From Limisphaerales bacterium (GTDB lineage Bacteria; Verrucomicrobiota; Verrucomicrobiia; Limisphaerales; SXTU01), in the NCBI GenBank assembly GCA_009773355.1, contig WRPG01000013.1:92497-129226 (forward strand): a DNA stretch of 36,730 nucleotides. The letters are read 5' to 3'. Positions 794 to 27,079 of this stretch are shown in pieces. Made by a program: the position numbers and the translations under genes. The notes under the pieces are model-generated. The model saw only the letters and a program-made list of their open reading frames with translations. It was not told where the DNA came from and made no database searches. The first letter of the stretch is position 1, and each line of letters starts with the position of its first letter.

Positions 794-1579
794 TCACTTT
801 TGCGGGGGGAGCGCGACGGAGGACGGGGTAAGAACCGCGTCGCCCTCGCGGATTTCGCTCTTCTTGAGCAAGACGTTGGCAATGGAGTAATCGGTTTCGA
901 GGCGGGAAACCTTCACTCGGGCGACGAGCTTGCCTTCGCGGCTGATGGTCAGCTCGCCATTCTTGAGCAGGCCGTGGTTGGCCCCCATGTCCAGGATGAC
1001 GAAGTCCCACTTGGGGTCCACGGCGGTGACCTTGCCGCTGAGGCTGGGCAGCACCACCGCGCCCTTGGGGTTGAGAAAAGACTGCAGCTCGCTGGTGGCC
1101 TTGATGTGCTGGGTCATCAGCACGCGCTGCTCGGACTTGAGGGTGCTGAGTTCGTTGGTGGCCTTGGGCAGCTCGGTGTGGATGCGCTTGATGACCTGCG
1201 GGGTCAGGCCGTCCTTTTGCAGGTCGAAGTATTCGACGCTCATGGCCTTGATGGTGGCGGTCTCCTGCTTGGCCTTGTTGGTTTCCTGCGCGGCGGCGAC
1301 GGCCTTTTGCTTCTCGGCCGCCGCAGCCTTCATGGCGTCAGCCTCGGACTTTTTGGACTGGTCGAGGTCGTTTTTCAGCGCGTCGCGCTCCTGCTCGGCG
1401 CCCTTGGCGCGGGTTTCCTGCTTGGTCCGCTCCTGCTGCTCCTTGGTCAGGTCGTCCGAGGTCTTCTTCTGCTTTTCGGCCAGGCTGTCCAGGTGGGGCT
1501 TGAGCTTGAGCTCGCCGATCACGATGACGCCGGCACTGGCGAGGATGACCAGGAAGAGGATGAGTCGCAGGGCGAGCAT
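794..1579 (-). CDS. Membrane-anchored coiled-coil protein with C-terminal beta domain, unknown function
   Basis: The 261-residue protein has one N-terminal hydrophobic helix (about residues 4-22). A long Lys/Glu/Ala/Gln-rich stretch (about 25-115) is strongly predicted as coiled coil. The C-terminal part (about 178-250) looks like small beta domains: a 'GKVTAVDPKWDFVILDMGANHGL' type strand pattern, then 'GELTISREGKLVARVKV' and a 'REGDAV' turn. This general architecture (TM helix, coiled coil, beta-barrel tail) resembles MreC, but I do not see enough to call it MreC. It probably faces the periplasm. It sits between the BNR-like gene (73-base gap) and the small lipoprotein (1-base gap), all leftward, so the three may be one transcript. 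No Shine-Dalgarno sequence is evident. Confidence 0.8.
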   Translation of the reverse strand: MLALRLILFLVILASAGVIVIGELKLKPHLDSLAEKQKKTSDDLTKEQQERTKQETRAKGAEQERDALKNDLDQSKKSEADAMKAAAAEKQKAVAAAQETNKAKQETATIKAMSVEYFDLQKDGLTPQVIKRIHTELPKATNELSTLKSEQRVLMTQHIKATSELQSFLNPKGAVVLPSLSGKVTAVDPKWDFVILDMGANHGLLKNGELTISREGKLVARVKVSRLETDYSIANVLLKKSEIREGDAVLTPSSVALPPQK

Positions 1580-5795: not shown

Positions 5796-7472
5796 GTGTC
5801 CTTCACCTCCTGGCAATACCCGCTCTTCCTGCTCGGCGTCGTGCTGCTCTACTGGCGGCTGCCGCCGCGCGGGCGGCTCACGCTGTTGCTCATCACGAGC
5901 TACGTCTTCTACGGCGTGTGGGACGTGCGCTTCCTCGCGCTGCTGCTCACCTCGACGTGCATTGATTACTACTGTGGTAGAGCCATCGTCGGCGAACGCG
6001 CGCCGGTGAAACAGGTCTTCGGCGCGGCGCTTCTGCCGCTGCTGTGGCTTGGTGGTTGCGCGGCTTTCACCGAGAAGTCCGGCGCGGTGCAAACTTGGAT
6101 TCTCGGCGCCGCCGCCGCCTTCCCGCTGCTCTTCACCGCGCTCTATGAATTGCTATGGCGCAAGCCCGAGGCCGCGCAACGCCGCGCCTTCCTCCTCCTG
6201 AGCATCCTCACGAACCTCGCCGTCCTAGGCTTCTTCAAATACTTCAACTTCTTCGCCGACTCCCTGCTGTCGCTCGCGGGCCAGTTCGGCTTTGCCCCGG
6301 GCTGGATGCTCCCGACCATCATCCTGCCCGTCGCCATCTCGTTCTACACCTTCCAGTCCATCGCCTACTCGGTGGACATTTATCGCGGCAAGGCCCAGCC
6401 CGCGCGCGACCTGCTCACCTTCGCGGCCTACCTCTCCTTCTTCCCGCAGCTCGTCGCCGGCCCCATCGAGCGGCCCAACGACCTGCTGCCGCAGTTCACC
6501 AAGACCGCCGAGTTCGCGTGGGAGCACATCCATCGCGGCCTGCGGCTGCTGCTCATCGGCCTGTTCAAGAAAATCTTCGTGGCCGACAACTGCGCGCTGC
6601 TCGCCAACCACGTCTTCAACGGCCAGGCCGAGCTGAACGCACCGTGGGCCATGCTCGGCGTGGTCGCGTTCGCGTTCCAGATCTACGGCGACTTCTCCGG
6701 CTACACCGACCTCGCGCGCGGTTCGGCCCGGCTGCTGGGCATTCACCTCAACCCGAACTTCCGCCTCCCCTACGCCGCGCGCGGGCCGTCGGACTTCTGG
6801 ACGCGCTGGCACATCACGCTCTCCGCATGGTTCCGCGACTACGTCTACATCCCGCTCGGCGGCAACCGCGCCGGCACCGCGCGCACGCTGGGCAACCTCT
6901 GGGTCGCCATGCTTCTCGCCGGCCTGTGGCACGGCGCGAGTTGGATCTTCGTGCTCTGGGGCGCGTATCACGCCGCGCTGCTCACGCTCTACCGCCTCGT
7001 CCCATGGCTGCGGAAGTTGGAACAAGGGGGGCTGGCTGCTGCTGCTCCCCCGCCCGCACCGCGTGAGCCGGGCGCTGAACCCGTGCCGGCGACTTGCAGT
7101 CGCCGTCCGTCGGCTCCAGACGCGCCACGCGGCGACTGCAAGTCGCCGGCACTGGCCATCGCCGTGATGTTCTGCTTCACCCTCATCGGCTGGGCGATCT
7201 TCCGCGCGCCAAATCTCGCTGTGCTCGGCAACTGGTTCGCCGCCTTCGGGAACTGGTCGCCCGTCGCCGAGGCGTGGGTGAAGCCTTCGCTCTGGCTCGC
7301 GCTGCACGCCGCCCCGCTCCTGCTGCTGCAATGGGCCACGCGCCGCGCCCGCGATGAAGTCGAACTGCCCGACTGGCCCTGGCCCGTGCGCGGGCTGGCC
7401 TTCGTAGTCCTGTTCCTCGCCATCGCCAGCTCGGCGGTGAGCGAGCAGGAGTTCATTTACTTCCAGTTCTGA
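5796..7472 (+). CDS. MBOAT family O-acyltransferase (AlgI/DltB-like) with an in-frame REP-like insertion
   Basis: This polytopic membrane protein of 558 residues starts at GTG, six bases after the methyltransferase stop. Diagnostic pieces of the AlgI branch are 'FFKYFNFF' (about 146-153), 'SFYTFQSIAY' (182-191), 'FPQLVAGPIERP' (216-227), 'RWHITLSAWFRDYVYIPLGGNR' (337 on) and 'LWHGASW' with the conserved His379. Such enzymes move acyl groups across the membrane to extracytoplasmic polysaccharides. Residues about 430-452 (VPATCSRR..., RGDCKSPA) are encoded by a dispersed palindromic repeat also present twice outside genes. It falls in a Pro/Ala-rich loop between membrane segments and keeps the frame, so the protein is probably still functional. 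The next gene overlaps by one base and encodes an SGNH hydrolase, the usual partner of AlgI-type enzymes. Confidence 0.92.
   Translation: MSFTSWQYPLFLLGVVLLYWRLPPRGRLTLLLITSYVFYGVWDVRFLALLLTSTCIDYYCGRAIVGERAPVKQVFGAALLPLLWLGGCAAFTEKSGAVQTWILGAAAAFPLLFTALYELLWRKPEAAQRRAFLLLSILTNLAVLGFFKYFNFFADSLLSLAGQFGFAPGWMLPTIILPVAISFYTFQSIAYSVDIYRGKAQPARDLLTFAAYLSFFPQLVAGPIERPNDLLPQFTKTAEFAWEHIHRGLRLLLIGLFKKIFVADNCALLANHVFNGQAELNAPWAMLGVVAFAFQIYGDFSGYTDLARGSARLLGIHLNPNFRLPYAARGPSDFWTRWHITLSAWFRDYVYIPLGGNRAGTARTLGNLWVAMLLAGLWHGASWIFVLWGAYHAALLTLYRLVPWLRKLEQGGLAAAAPPPAPREPGAEPVPATCSRRPSAPDAPRGDCKSPALAIAVMFCFTLIGWAIFRAPNLAVLGNWFAAFGNWSPVAEAWVKPSLWLALHAAPLLLLQWATRRARDEVELPDWPWPVRGLAFVVLFLAIASSAVSEQEFIYFQF
7083..7152. 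repeat. REP-like palindromic element, copy A (inside MBOAT gene)
   Basis: This 70-base element has two 23-base arms, 7083-7105 and 7130-7152, that are exact reverse complements. Each arm is itself a hairpin: an eight-base stem (CGGCGACT / AGTCGCCG) around a TGC loop. The same arms occur at 10827-10922 and 26985-27079 with unrelated spacers. This copy has the shortest spacer (24 bases) and keeps the MBOAT reading frame, with no stop codon. Confidence 0.9.
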
Positions 7473-8452
7473 TGCGCGCCGCGACGAAGCCCTTCCTCCT
7501 GTGCCTCGCGCTGCTCGTCGGCGCGGAGCTGGTGGTGCGCGTGTTCTTCGCGCGCAGCATGTCGGGGCGCTTCGACTACGGCTACCACCCGACCGCCGGC
7601 TTCGTGGAGCAGCCGGATGGCACGGTGCGCCTGGAGCGCGCGGGTGGGCGGCGCTTCTTCCCGCAGACCTTCAGCCGCGAGCGCCCGGCGGACACTTTCC
7701 GCATCTTCGTCATCGGCGATTCCGTGGCGCGCGGGACGAGCGTGGCGAGTTCCTACGCCGGCCAGCTCGGCGAACTGCTCCGCGCGCGCGGCGTGAAGGT
7801 GGAAAGTTTCAACCTGTCCGTCCCCGGTTACGGCGCGCGGCGCAAGCACCTCGTGCTCGAACAGGCGCTCCAGTATCAGCCCAGCCTGGTCATCCTGCAC
7901 TTGAACAACTCGAACGAATACGAGGACGAGCGCGAGTGGCGGCGGCGCGAGGAGTTCCGCGGCTGGCATCCGAGGAACTGGCTGATGAAAAGCCTCGTCG
8001 TCCGCCGGCTGCACGAGATGAAGCAGGAGAAGGTGTATTGGGAATGGCTGCCCGCGAGCGTCCGCCAGCAGCGGGCCGCCAGCGACGCCGACGCGGAATT
8101 GAAGTCGTCGCTCAATGCGGACAAGGTCCGGCAGTGGAACGAGCTTGTCCGCAGGCAGACCGGCGAGAGCGTCCGCCTGGCCCGGGAGCGGGGCGCGCGG
8201 GTGCTGGTGGTCGCACAGGCCACAGCCGCGAAGGACGCGGCGGGCAAGCCGGCGCTGGACGACAATTCACTCGATGAACTCGCCACCCGGATGCGCGCGG
8301 AGGGAGCGGCGACGCTCTCGATGAAGGAGCTGCTCTCCCGCCGCGACTGGCCGCCGCTCTTCGCCGACGGCTCGCACCTGCGGCCGGACGGACACATGGT
8401 TTTGGCGGAATCGCTGGCGGAGTCGCTGCGGCGGGAGAAGTGGGTGCCGTAA
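7472..8452 (+). CDS. SGNH/GDSL-family hydrolase, membrane-anchored, partner of the MBOAT protein
   Basis: The 326-residue protein has an N-terminal hydrophobic helix (about 8-27), acting as signal anchor, followed by an SGNH domain. Block I is F-V-I-G-D-S-V-A-R-G with nucleophile Ser84. The glycine block is 'SVPGYG' (117-121) and the Asn block is L-N-N-S-N-E (144-149). The catalytic pair is in A-D-G-S-H (Asp299 and His302). It would hydrolyse or transfer acyl esters in the periplasm. The start ATG overlaps the MBOAT stop (TGATG). MBOAT plus SGNH is the layout of alginate and peptidoglycan O-acetylation systems, so this protein may be the acyl transferase acting on the final glycan, or an esterase that limits modification. 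Confidence 0.88.
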   Translation: MRAATKPFLLCLALLVGAELVVRVFFARSMSGRFDYGYHPTAGFVEQPDGTVRLERAGGRRFFPQTFSRERPADTFRIFVIGDSVARGTSVASSYAGQLGELLRARGVKVESFNLSVPGYGARRKHLVLEQALQYQPSLVILHLNNSNEYEDEREWRRREEFRGWHPRNWLMKSLVVRRLHEMKQEKVYWEWLPASVRQQRAASDADAELKSSLNADKVRQWNELVRRQTGESVRLARERGARVLVVAQATAAKDAAGKPALDDNSLDELATRMRAEGAATLSMKELLSRRDWPPLFADGSHLRPDGHMVLAESLAESLRREKWVP

Positions 8453-10826: not shown

Positions 10827-10922
10827 GTGCCGGCGACTTACAGTCGCCGTTTGGCGGGTGGACTGCTCGGAGCGGCCTCGAACTGCTGCTCCCAACCGAC
10901 GGCGACTGCAAGTCGCCGGCAC
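10827..10922. repeat. REP-like palindromic element, copy B (between rarA and fau)
   Basis: Arms lie at 10827-10849 and 10900-10922, reverse complementary except for one base in the loop of the left hairpin (CTTACAG in place of CTTGCAG). Arm sequence matches copies A and C; the 50-base spacer does not. It lies between the rarA stop and the fau start, on the upstream side of fau, where it would form a double hairpin in a rarA-fau transcript. Confidence 0.9.
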
Positions 10923-15320: not shown

Positions 15321-15780
15321 CGCCGAAACCGAATCGCCGCGAAAGAACGTAAAAAACTTCTCCCTCTCCGCGCTGGGGAGAGGGCCGGGATGAGGTGCTT
15401 CCAACCGCTGATGGACGCTGATGGACGCTGATGCAGGAGGGCTGACGCGAATTTCACGAATTGGCGCTAAACCAAACTGACTTGCCCCAACGGGGCAACG
15501 GAAATTAGCCCGGGGTTGCTTTGCGACAAGCACGGGGATTTAACGACTCCTCACCCCGGCCCTCCTCCTCGTTCGGCGAGGAGAGGGAGAATTATTTTGT
15601 GGGACGTTTACCCGGGGTAGGTGCTTGCGCACGGCCACCGGCGCACCAACCCCGGGCTAATTTCCGTAGCGCCTTCAGCGCATTTGAATTCGCGTCAGCC
15701 CCTCTTGAATCCGTGTCCTTTGGTGTTCTTCCGTGGTTAAAACCTTTTGCCCGCCCGCCATTTTTGTTACGAATGCTCGC
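15321..15780. repeat. Gene-free stretch: nested mosaic of dispersed inverted repeats
   Basis: About 460 bases without a convincing gene. Three inverted repeats are visible. CTGACGCGAATT (15442-15453) pairs with 15687-15698. The 20 bases 15499-15518 pair exactly with 15647-15666. Inside, 15360-15395 (an AGAGGGCCGGGATGAGG-type arm) pairs loosely with 15549-15590. In addition, 15405-15433 holds tandem 'CTGATGGACG' words, and 15707-15745 a stretch of 'CCGTGTCC...TTCCGTGGTTAAAA' type, which resembles widely dispersed repeats in this phylum. The mosaic suggests repeated insertion of small repeats into the same gap. Confidence 0.75.
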
Positions 15781-26984: not shown

Positions 26985-27079
26985 GTGCCGGCGACTTGCA
27001 GTCGCCGCCCGTTGGCTGCTGGAGGAGATTGGGTTTCGAGCCATCCGCCCGCAACGCGGCGACTGCAAGTCGCCGGCAC
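26985..27079. repeat. REP-like palindromic element, copy C (between convergent genes)
   Basis: Arms 26985-27007 and 27057-27079 are exact reverse complements and identical to those of copy A; the 49-base spacer differs. It fills the gap between the lipoprotein stop (26981) and the stop of the leftward prenyl-synthase fusion (27083), where its hairpins could act as a two-way transcription end. Confidence 0.9.

Follow-up and report, generated by a model that had tools for sequence, protein, structure and literature searches.

An in-frame REPIN in an MBOAT acyltransferase gene of a Limisphaerales bacterium and frame retention in its dispersed repeat family

Palindromic repeats that are read in frame within genes are best known from Rickettsia, obligate intracellular bacteria with reduced genomes, as the RPEs (Ogata 2000/2002; Claverie and Ogata 2003; cited in PMC3733652 and PMC6649704), the repeat identity of which is lost with time according to the latter paper. 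Intragenic REPs of several species were surveyed by the Di Nocera group in 2013, Opitutus terrae having the largest number of GTAG cases; REP dimers within genes encode 20-30 residues there, and tolerance in loops was argued (PMC3733652). The REPINs of Pseudomonas fluorescens SBW25 are dispersed inverted pairs of about 70 bp that form a hairpin, occur as singles and doublets and have been observed to be lost, and the REPs are extragenic and tied to RAYTs (Bertels and Rainey 2011; PMC3116915). The family analysed here belongs to a known kind, that of the Rickettsia RPEs and the Opitutus intragenic REPs. It shares with RPEs the occurrence of dispersed palindromes in frame in several unrelated, open and apparently functional genes, with empty sites in orthologues, and differs in its GC-rich Verrucomicrobiota host, its REP-doublet architecture and the location of most copies outside genes. 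Like the GTAG and CGTC REPs of Opitutus terrae, a member of the same phylum (Verrucomicrobia), it occurs as singles and dimers in ORFs and encodes 20-30 residues, whereas its arms carry no GTAG tag and do not follow the CGTC stem rule (PMC3733652). SBW25 REPINs have the same layout; in contrast to these, about a third of the copies lie within genes, and a search of the genus for a cognate RAYT gave none.

The window, i.e. the whole stretch of DNA analysed, comprises 36,730 nucleotides of a 6.16-Mb genome (G000). At 7083-7152 it contains an unstranded 70-bp REPIN, ordered GTGCCGGCGACTTGCAGTCGCCG, 24-bp spacer, CGGCGACTGCAAGTCGCCGGCAC and identified through its arms, its DNA fold and its absence from orthologues. 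The two inverted 23-bp arms (7083-7105, plus strand; 7130-7152, minus strand) are exact reverse complements of each other and each is also an imperfect palindrome. As single-stranded DNA, the element folds into one hairpin (-39.7 kcal/mol, z = -9.5). In agreement with the preliminary description, the palindrome is located in frame and without stop codon in a gene of the MBOAT family of O-acyltransferases (5796-7472, plus strand; 558 residues, GTG start; PF03062, E = 2.3e-25), where it encodes V430-A452, VPATCSRRPSAPDAPRGDCKSPA. The left arm is read as VPATCSR, a minority phase of the family, and the right arm as GDCKSPA, the common exit phase. The protein matches the DltB-type model TIGR04091 below the cut-off of that model, and its predicted structure resembles DltB (8jem/6bug) and other MBOAT structures in Foldseek. 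A gene for a GDSL/SGNH-like hydrolase follows directly (7472-8452, plus strand; PF13472, E = 2e-8), and the two likely form a polysaccharide O-acylation pair.

The arm core of the family is GGCGACT-TGC-AGTCGCC and its hairpin GTGCCGGCGACT. Allowing up to three mismatches, the core GGCGACTTGCAGTCGCCG has 12 matches in the window, being six arms each read on both strands, compared to 0.18 expected from shuffles. Two further complete and unstranded REPINs lie outside convincing coding sequence, one of the 96-bp size class at 10827-10922 and one of 95 bp at 26985-27079. The earlier claim that identical arms occur twice outside genes thus holds apart from a single arm mismatch in one copy; the spacers are longer, so that the arms recur in the window but the complete elements are not identical. 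Throughout the genome, the arm core has 101 forward matches (101/100) and the reversed-pattern control none, as anticipated for a dispersed element. That conserved codons should resemble the repeat by chance, conceivable in that GC-rich, Pro/Ala-rich coding sequence may appear repetitive, is at odds with both counts and was rejected, as orthologues lack the stretch altogether; we regard its probability as negligible. A structured RNA was likewise rejected as an explanation, as an Rfam search of the window returned no family.

Full-length MBOAT orthologues are present within the genus in G002 (91% identity) and in G009 (81%; on the contig of public locus L023), and both lack the element DNA as well as residues 430-452 in the alignment. 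More distant orthologues (L019-L027) possess a short loop with neither the REPIN nor the second repeat described below. In the available orthologues, the insertion is hence confined to the lineage of G000, as the preliminary description had proposed to check by alignment, and no homologue was found that keeps the residues while lacking the DNA repeat. The MBOAT insertion very probably postdates the split of this lineage from the nearest sampled relatives. Directly upstream of the element, a Pro/Ala-rich linker (about residues 410-429; 7023-7082, plus strand), delineated by alignment and low pLDDT, is unrelated in sequence to the G002 and G009 loops, and on the structural model it would be a tolerant site. 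The AlphaFold2 model, computed from 34 sequences (mean pLDDT 86.6, pTM 0.87), places residues 411-449 without secondary structure between helices 403-410 and 450-470, with low pLDDT at 415-418 and values below 50 at 430-446, i.e. the insert is predicted to be a disordered linker between two helices. The insert is most likely near neutral.

It may be objected that the gene is a pseudogene or a misassembly, in which case an in-frame reading would be meaningless. All genomes used are draft metagenome assemblies, and that of G000 comprises 162 contigs with many repeats. Yet reads of ordinary length exceed the 70 bp of the element, both flanks align co-linearly, on single contigs, with the orthologues from G002 and G009, and the ORF remains open to the conserved C-terminus EFIYFQF with coding signal on both sides of the insert. 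We therefore consider this objection highly improbable.

The same loop is occupied in G002 and G009 by another stretch, CTCGCCCCC...GTGAGGGG, read in frame as PSPPTGERAGVRG or TSPPSAKRAGVRG. The core of this second repeat, GGGCCGGGGTGAGGG, is dispersed in 11 of 11 genus genomes, with 116 exact matches in G002, 45 in G000 and none for the reversed control. On its own the G002-loop repeat folds weakly (z = -0.83), and it is hence identified by its dispersal rather than by folding. It extends in frame as CTCGCCCCC..GGGGGAGAGGGCCGGGGTGAGGGG through the MBOAT loop at L120 (G002:C287, about 1470-1565, minus strand) and L121 (G009). Related strings are found in frame at the L149, L155 and L173 sites, with peptides such as LTPALSSGGGEG and TPSPRPSPSVGAREK, and the window itself holds two weak matches to the core with one to two mismatches (15382-15396 and 15548-15562).

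Sampling about 60 places in G000 reveals constant arms, variable spacers and additional single REPs, in size classes of about 66-73 bp and about 93-98 bp. The family is present in 11 of 11 genus genomes, with 1 to 101 forward core matches each; among the same-order genomes searched outside the genus few have weak core matches, indicating that it is rare there. Inverted pairing of palindromic REPs, a short spacer, one long hairpin and a high copy number are all as in described REPINs, whereas the location is not exclusively extragenic, as 20 of the 64 G000 copies lie inside genes. The outer arm end is GTGC, neither GTAG nor GTGG; degenerate variants of the REP tetranucleotide have been reported (PMC3733652). 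Many copies have a CGTC-like string after the arm (inner position +1 T in 63%, +2 C in 72%). The CGTC superfamily is defined by its CGTC tag and an 8-9 bp stem with AT pairs in the first and second position (PMC3733652), a rule that the stem CGGCGACT/AGTCGCCG fails, and membership was rejected. No Y1_Tnp gene flanked by window-family arms was found in the incomplete genomes of the genus, and 'REPIN' therefore denotes architecture here and not dependence on a RAYT. As candidates, L016 was rejected as an ordinary IS200 transposase without arms, and L017 and L018 because other REPs flank them.

L017 and L018 are the two REP-associated tyrosine transposase genes of G000. The former (86.8 bits, above the cut-off) has REPs of a third type in its flanks. 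The latter (262 residues; below the NCBIfam cut-off) has GTAGCTCGACATTCCAATGTCGAG GTAG REPINs on both sides, at 943-1063 and 1817-1913 of the locus, the downstream one overlapping the C-terminal codons of the RAYT. This canonical GTAG family has 171 core matches in G000. It shares genome and REPIN layout with the window family and differs in flanking its own RAYT and in being nearly absent from genes: 1 of 32 copies examined is intragenic (and in frame) compared to 20 of 64 (Fisher p = 0.0013), demonstrating that REPIN families of one genome differ in gene entry. The TAG stop that arises in one of the three phases of the GTAG arm is likely to explain only a small part of this gap. In the L017 region (109-1908; G000:C27, about 163952-165751), a 599-residue ORF fuses a 4-hydroxyproline epimerase in frame to the RAYT; REP sequences separate the two domains and also follow them.

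The MBOAT insertion is not isolated but one of about 20 in G000. Copies were classified by a home-made coding score based on hexamers, for which long ORFs from the loci concerned served as training set and which was applied to the flanks only. The 20 intragenic copies among the 64 of G000 lie between flanks that are coding in the same frame, and all are stop-free; none of the 64 separates same-strand flanks in different frames, although the coding calls are computed rather than curated and the 34 copies classed as 'noncoding/unclear' may hide some disrupted genes. In G002, the nearest relative, 11 of 41 classified copies are intragenic, again all in frame. Together, 31 of 31 intragenic copies are open and in frame, with no frameshift and no stop. 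For comparison, REPINs from non-coding places were placed computationally at random coding positions and classed likewise, yielding 279 open, 337 frameshifted and 44 stop-containing insertions (42% open). The observed 31/0/0 then has a probability of 0.42^31, about 2e-12; as at least two sites are common to G000 and G002, the effective number of intragenic copies is 28-29. The bias towards in-frame intragenic copies thereby supports the early suggestion that frame-keeping copies are selectively retained. Pfam domains span the insertions in a glycoside hydrolase, three MFS transporters, ApbE, the CheW domain of CheA, RsmA and Lnt, showing that the hosts are ordinary genes. The in-frame set represents either survivors of selection or, in principle, the product of targeting; we favour selection since entry and exit frames are independent, and purifying selection is the likely cause of the bias.

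The entry phase is biased as well. RAGDLQSP is read in 24 of 31 intragenic copies (15 of 20 in G000, 9 of 11 in G002), VPATCSRR in 5, including the window copy, and the third phase in 2 (binomial p = 6e-7 for 24/31; 8e-6 for 21/28). This strong preference for one phase may further distinguish the family from the RPEs. The two cysteines that the product of the element was said to add to the membrane enzyme are indeed encoded by the window copy, but they are incidental, as this is a minority phase and RAGDLQSP dominates. A literature search for the encoded peptide strings found none. Stop codons were rejected as the cause of the bias, because the three phases are about equally open: among non-coding copies, 59, 61 and 63 of 70 readings per phase contain no stop, and the simulated open insertions divide as 82/83/114.

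Alternatively, the insertion mechanism itself may generate both phase and frame bias, with a transposase target in a fixed codon phase and little selection. The outer flanks are indeed C-rich (the last three positions have C in 63-73% of cases each), and base composition varies with codon phase in this GC-rich genome; a CCCG target would give 0.45 for the favoured phase. CCC, however, is distributed nearly evenly over the codon phases (0.365/0.324/0.312), so that a CCC target predicts 0.32 for the favoured phase (p = 3e-7 for 24/31), and a simple C or CCC preference is insufficient. Furthermore, the exit frame is always kept although the entry phase says nothing about it, and the same loops in relatives are empty or contain unrelated repeats. 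An origin of both biases in targeting is accordingly unlikely, while an unrecognised target preference could lie behind part of the phase bias. Selection on the peptide would be its simplest cause: neither of the other two entry readings is as hydrophilic as RAGDLQSP (mean Kyte-Doolittle -1.09 compared to -0.45 and +1.16).

The states of individual sites across the genus were compared using the flank peptides of 19 sites, concatenated as one query against the genus, followed by comparison of the loops. At the GH31 site, G000, G001 and G010 carry the insert and G007 and G003 retain CGCCGGCACGGG alone; at the EamA site, the insert is present in G000 and G002, and most other genomes have short loops. 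At the L185 site, G000 carries a full REPIN and G007 (L267, G007:C28) a 10-nt palindrome, GTGCCGGCAC, in which the two outer ends are fused, the product that a deletion between the GCCGGC direct repeats in the arms would leave. The L149 site, in a protein without Pfam match that is spermidine-synthase-like by inspection, has a 27-nt collapsed REP (RADGLQLPAR) in G004, a diverged REPIN in G002 and a different repeat in G010. An unrelated repeat replaces the REPIN in relatives at the MFS (L155) and MBOAT sites. Empty sites exist in orthologues for MBOAT, L154, L177, L173a and L185, some of them keeping scars. These forms likely correspond to successive insertion, divergence, collapse through arm-to-arm deletion, scar formation and replacement.

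Recruitment of the peptide, RAGDLQSP...GDCKSPA or VPATCSRR, as a positively selected loop for binding, targeting or regulation would account for one phase recurring in about 15 different G000 proteins and for the insertions at the L154 and L157 sites that several species have in common. Against this, the hosts are unrelated (glycosidases, transporters, RsmA, CheA, ApbE), orthologues lack the peptide, have a collapsed form or carry a different repeat, neither the two cysteines nor a fixed motif is kept in diverged copies, and the model predicts disorder for the MBOAT insert. We judge recruitment to be quite improbable. Regarding the proposal that such elements open a route to new protein loops, added unstructured sequence that is often lost again is what the data bear out, not new function.

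Collectively, we propose that the window element very probably belongs to a selfish, mobile REPIN family that is filtered by purifying selection at the protein level and whose presence in the MBOAT loop is lineage-specific. A non-autonomous REPIN of this genus-wide family would have inserted into the loop, its movement probably being provided in trans by a RAYT-type single-strand transposase. Intragenic insertions would persist if length and sequence keep the downstream frame and if 20-30 extra residues are tolerated, and the survivors would hence be found in frame, in loops or linkers; this location is predicted by the model for MBOAT and presumed for the other hosts. Entry as RAGDLQSP...GDCKSPA would be favoured through selection against the hydrophobic or Cys/Arg-rich alternatives. 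Old copies would either shrink by arm-to-arm deletion, leaving one REP of 27 nt or a short scar, or diverge where they stand. That the family has become adapted to genes through a benign hydrophilic peptide, with loops serving as landing pads for successive unrelated repeats, is a more tentative extension and on balance doubtful.

The lengthening of proteins by selfish DNA is a real, though precedented, route here, in a 6-Mb GC-rich genome in place of the reduced genomes of Rickettsia. About twenty genes have inserts, a nearly extragenic REPIN family in the same genome represents a built-in control, and eleven genomes display the same sites filled, diverged, collapsed, scarred and replaced. 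This renders the genus a good natural system in which the frequency of selfish DNA becoming protein, selection at the protein level and the reuse of tolerant loops are measurable. As far as the compared literature goes, the new points are the family, the measurement of how often it keeps the frame, its bias in reading phase, a sister family outside genes that acts as control, the scars and the reuse of loops by unrelated repeats. Retention relative to simulated insertions, phase bias and loss scars extend beyond the 2013 survey, where two Xanthomonas species have different REPs at about one and the same position in recB, a parallel to the shared loops (PMC3733652).

Two individual hosts deserve mention. 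The RsmA gene at L191 (1488-1510; G000:C33, about 20043) contains a single REP arm; compared to G002 (L238), the segment up to the NLPY motif is lost and FDVPY stands for KLVANLPY. The allele may be impaired, or the assembly may have collapsed at the hairpin. At L171 (1436-1567; G000:C127), three tandem family arms are read in frame in a fatty-acid/polyketide-synthase-like protein that combines an acyltransferase with several carrier-protein domains; the contig also has a second REPIN, inside a FabA-domain protein (L144).
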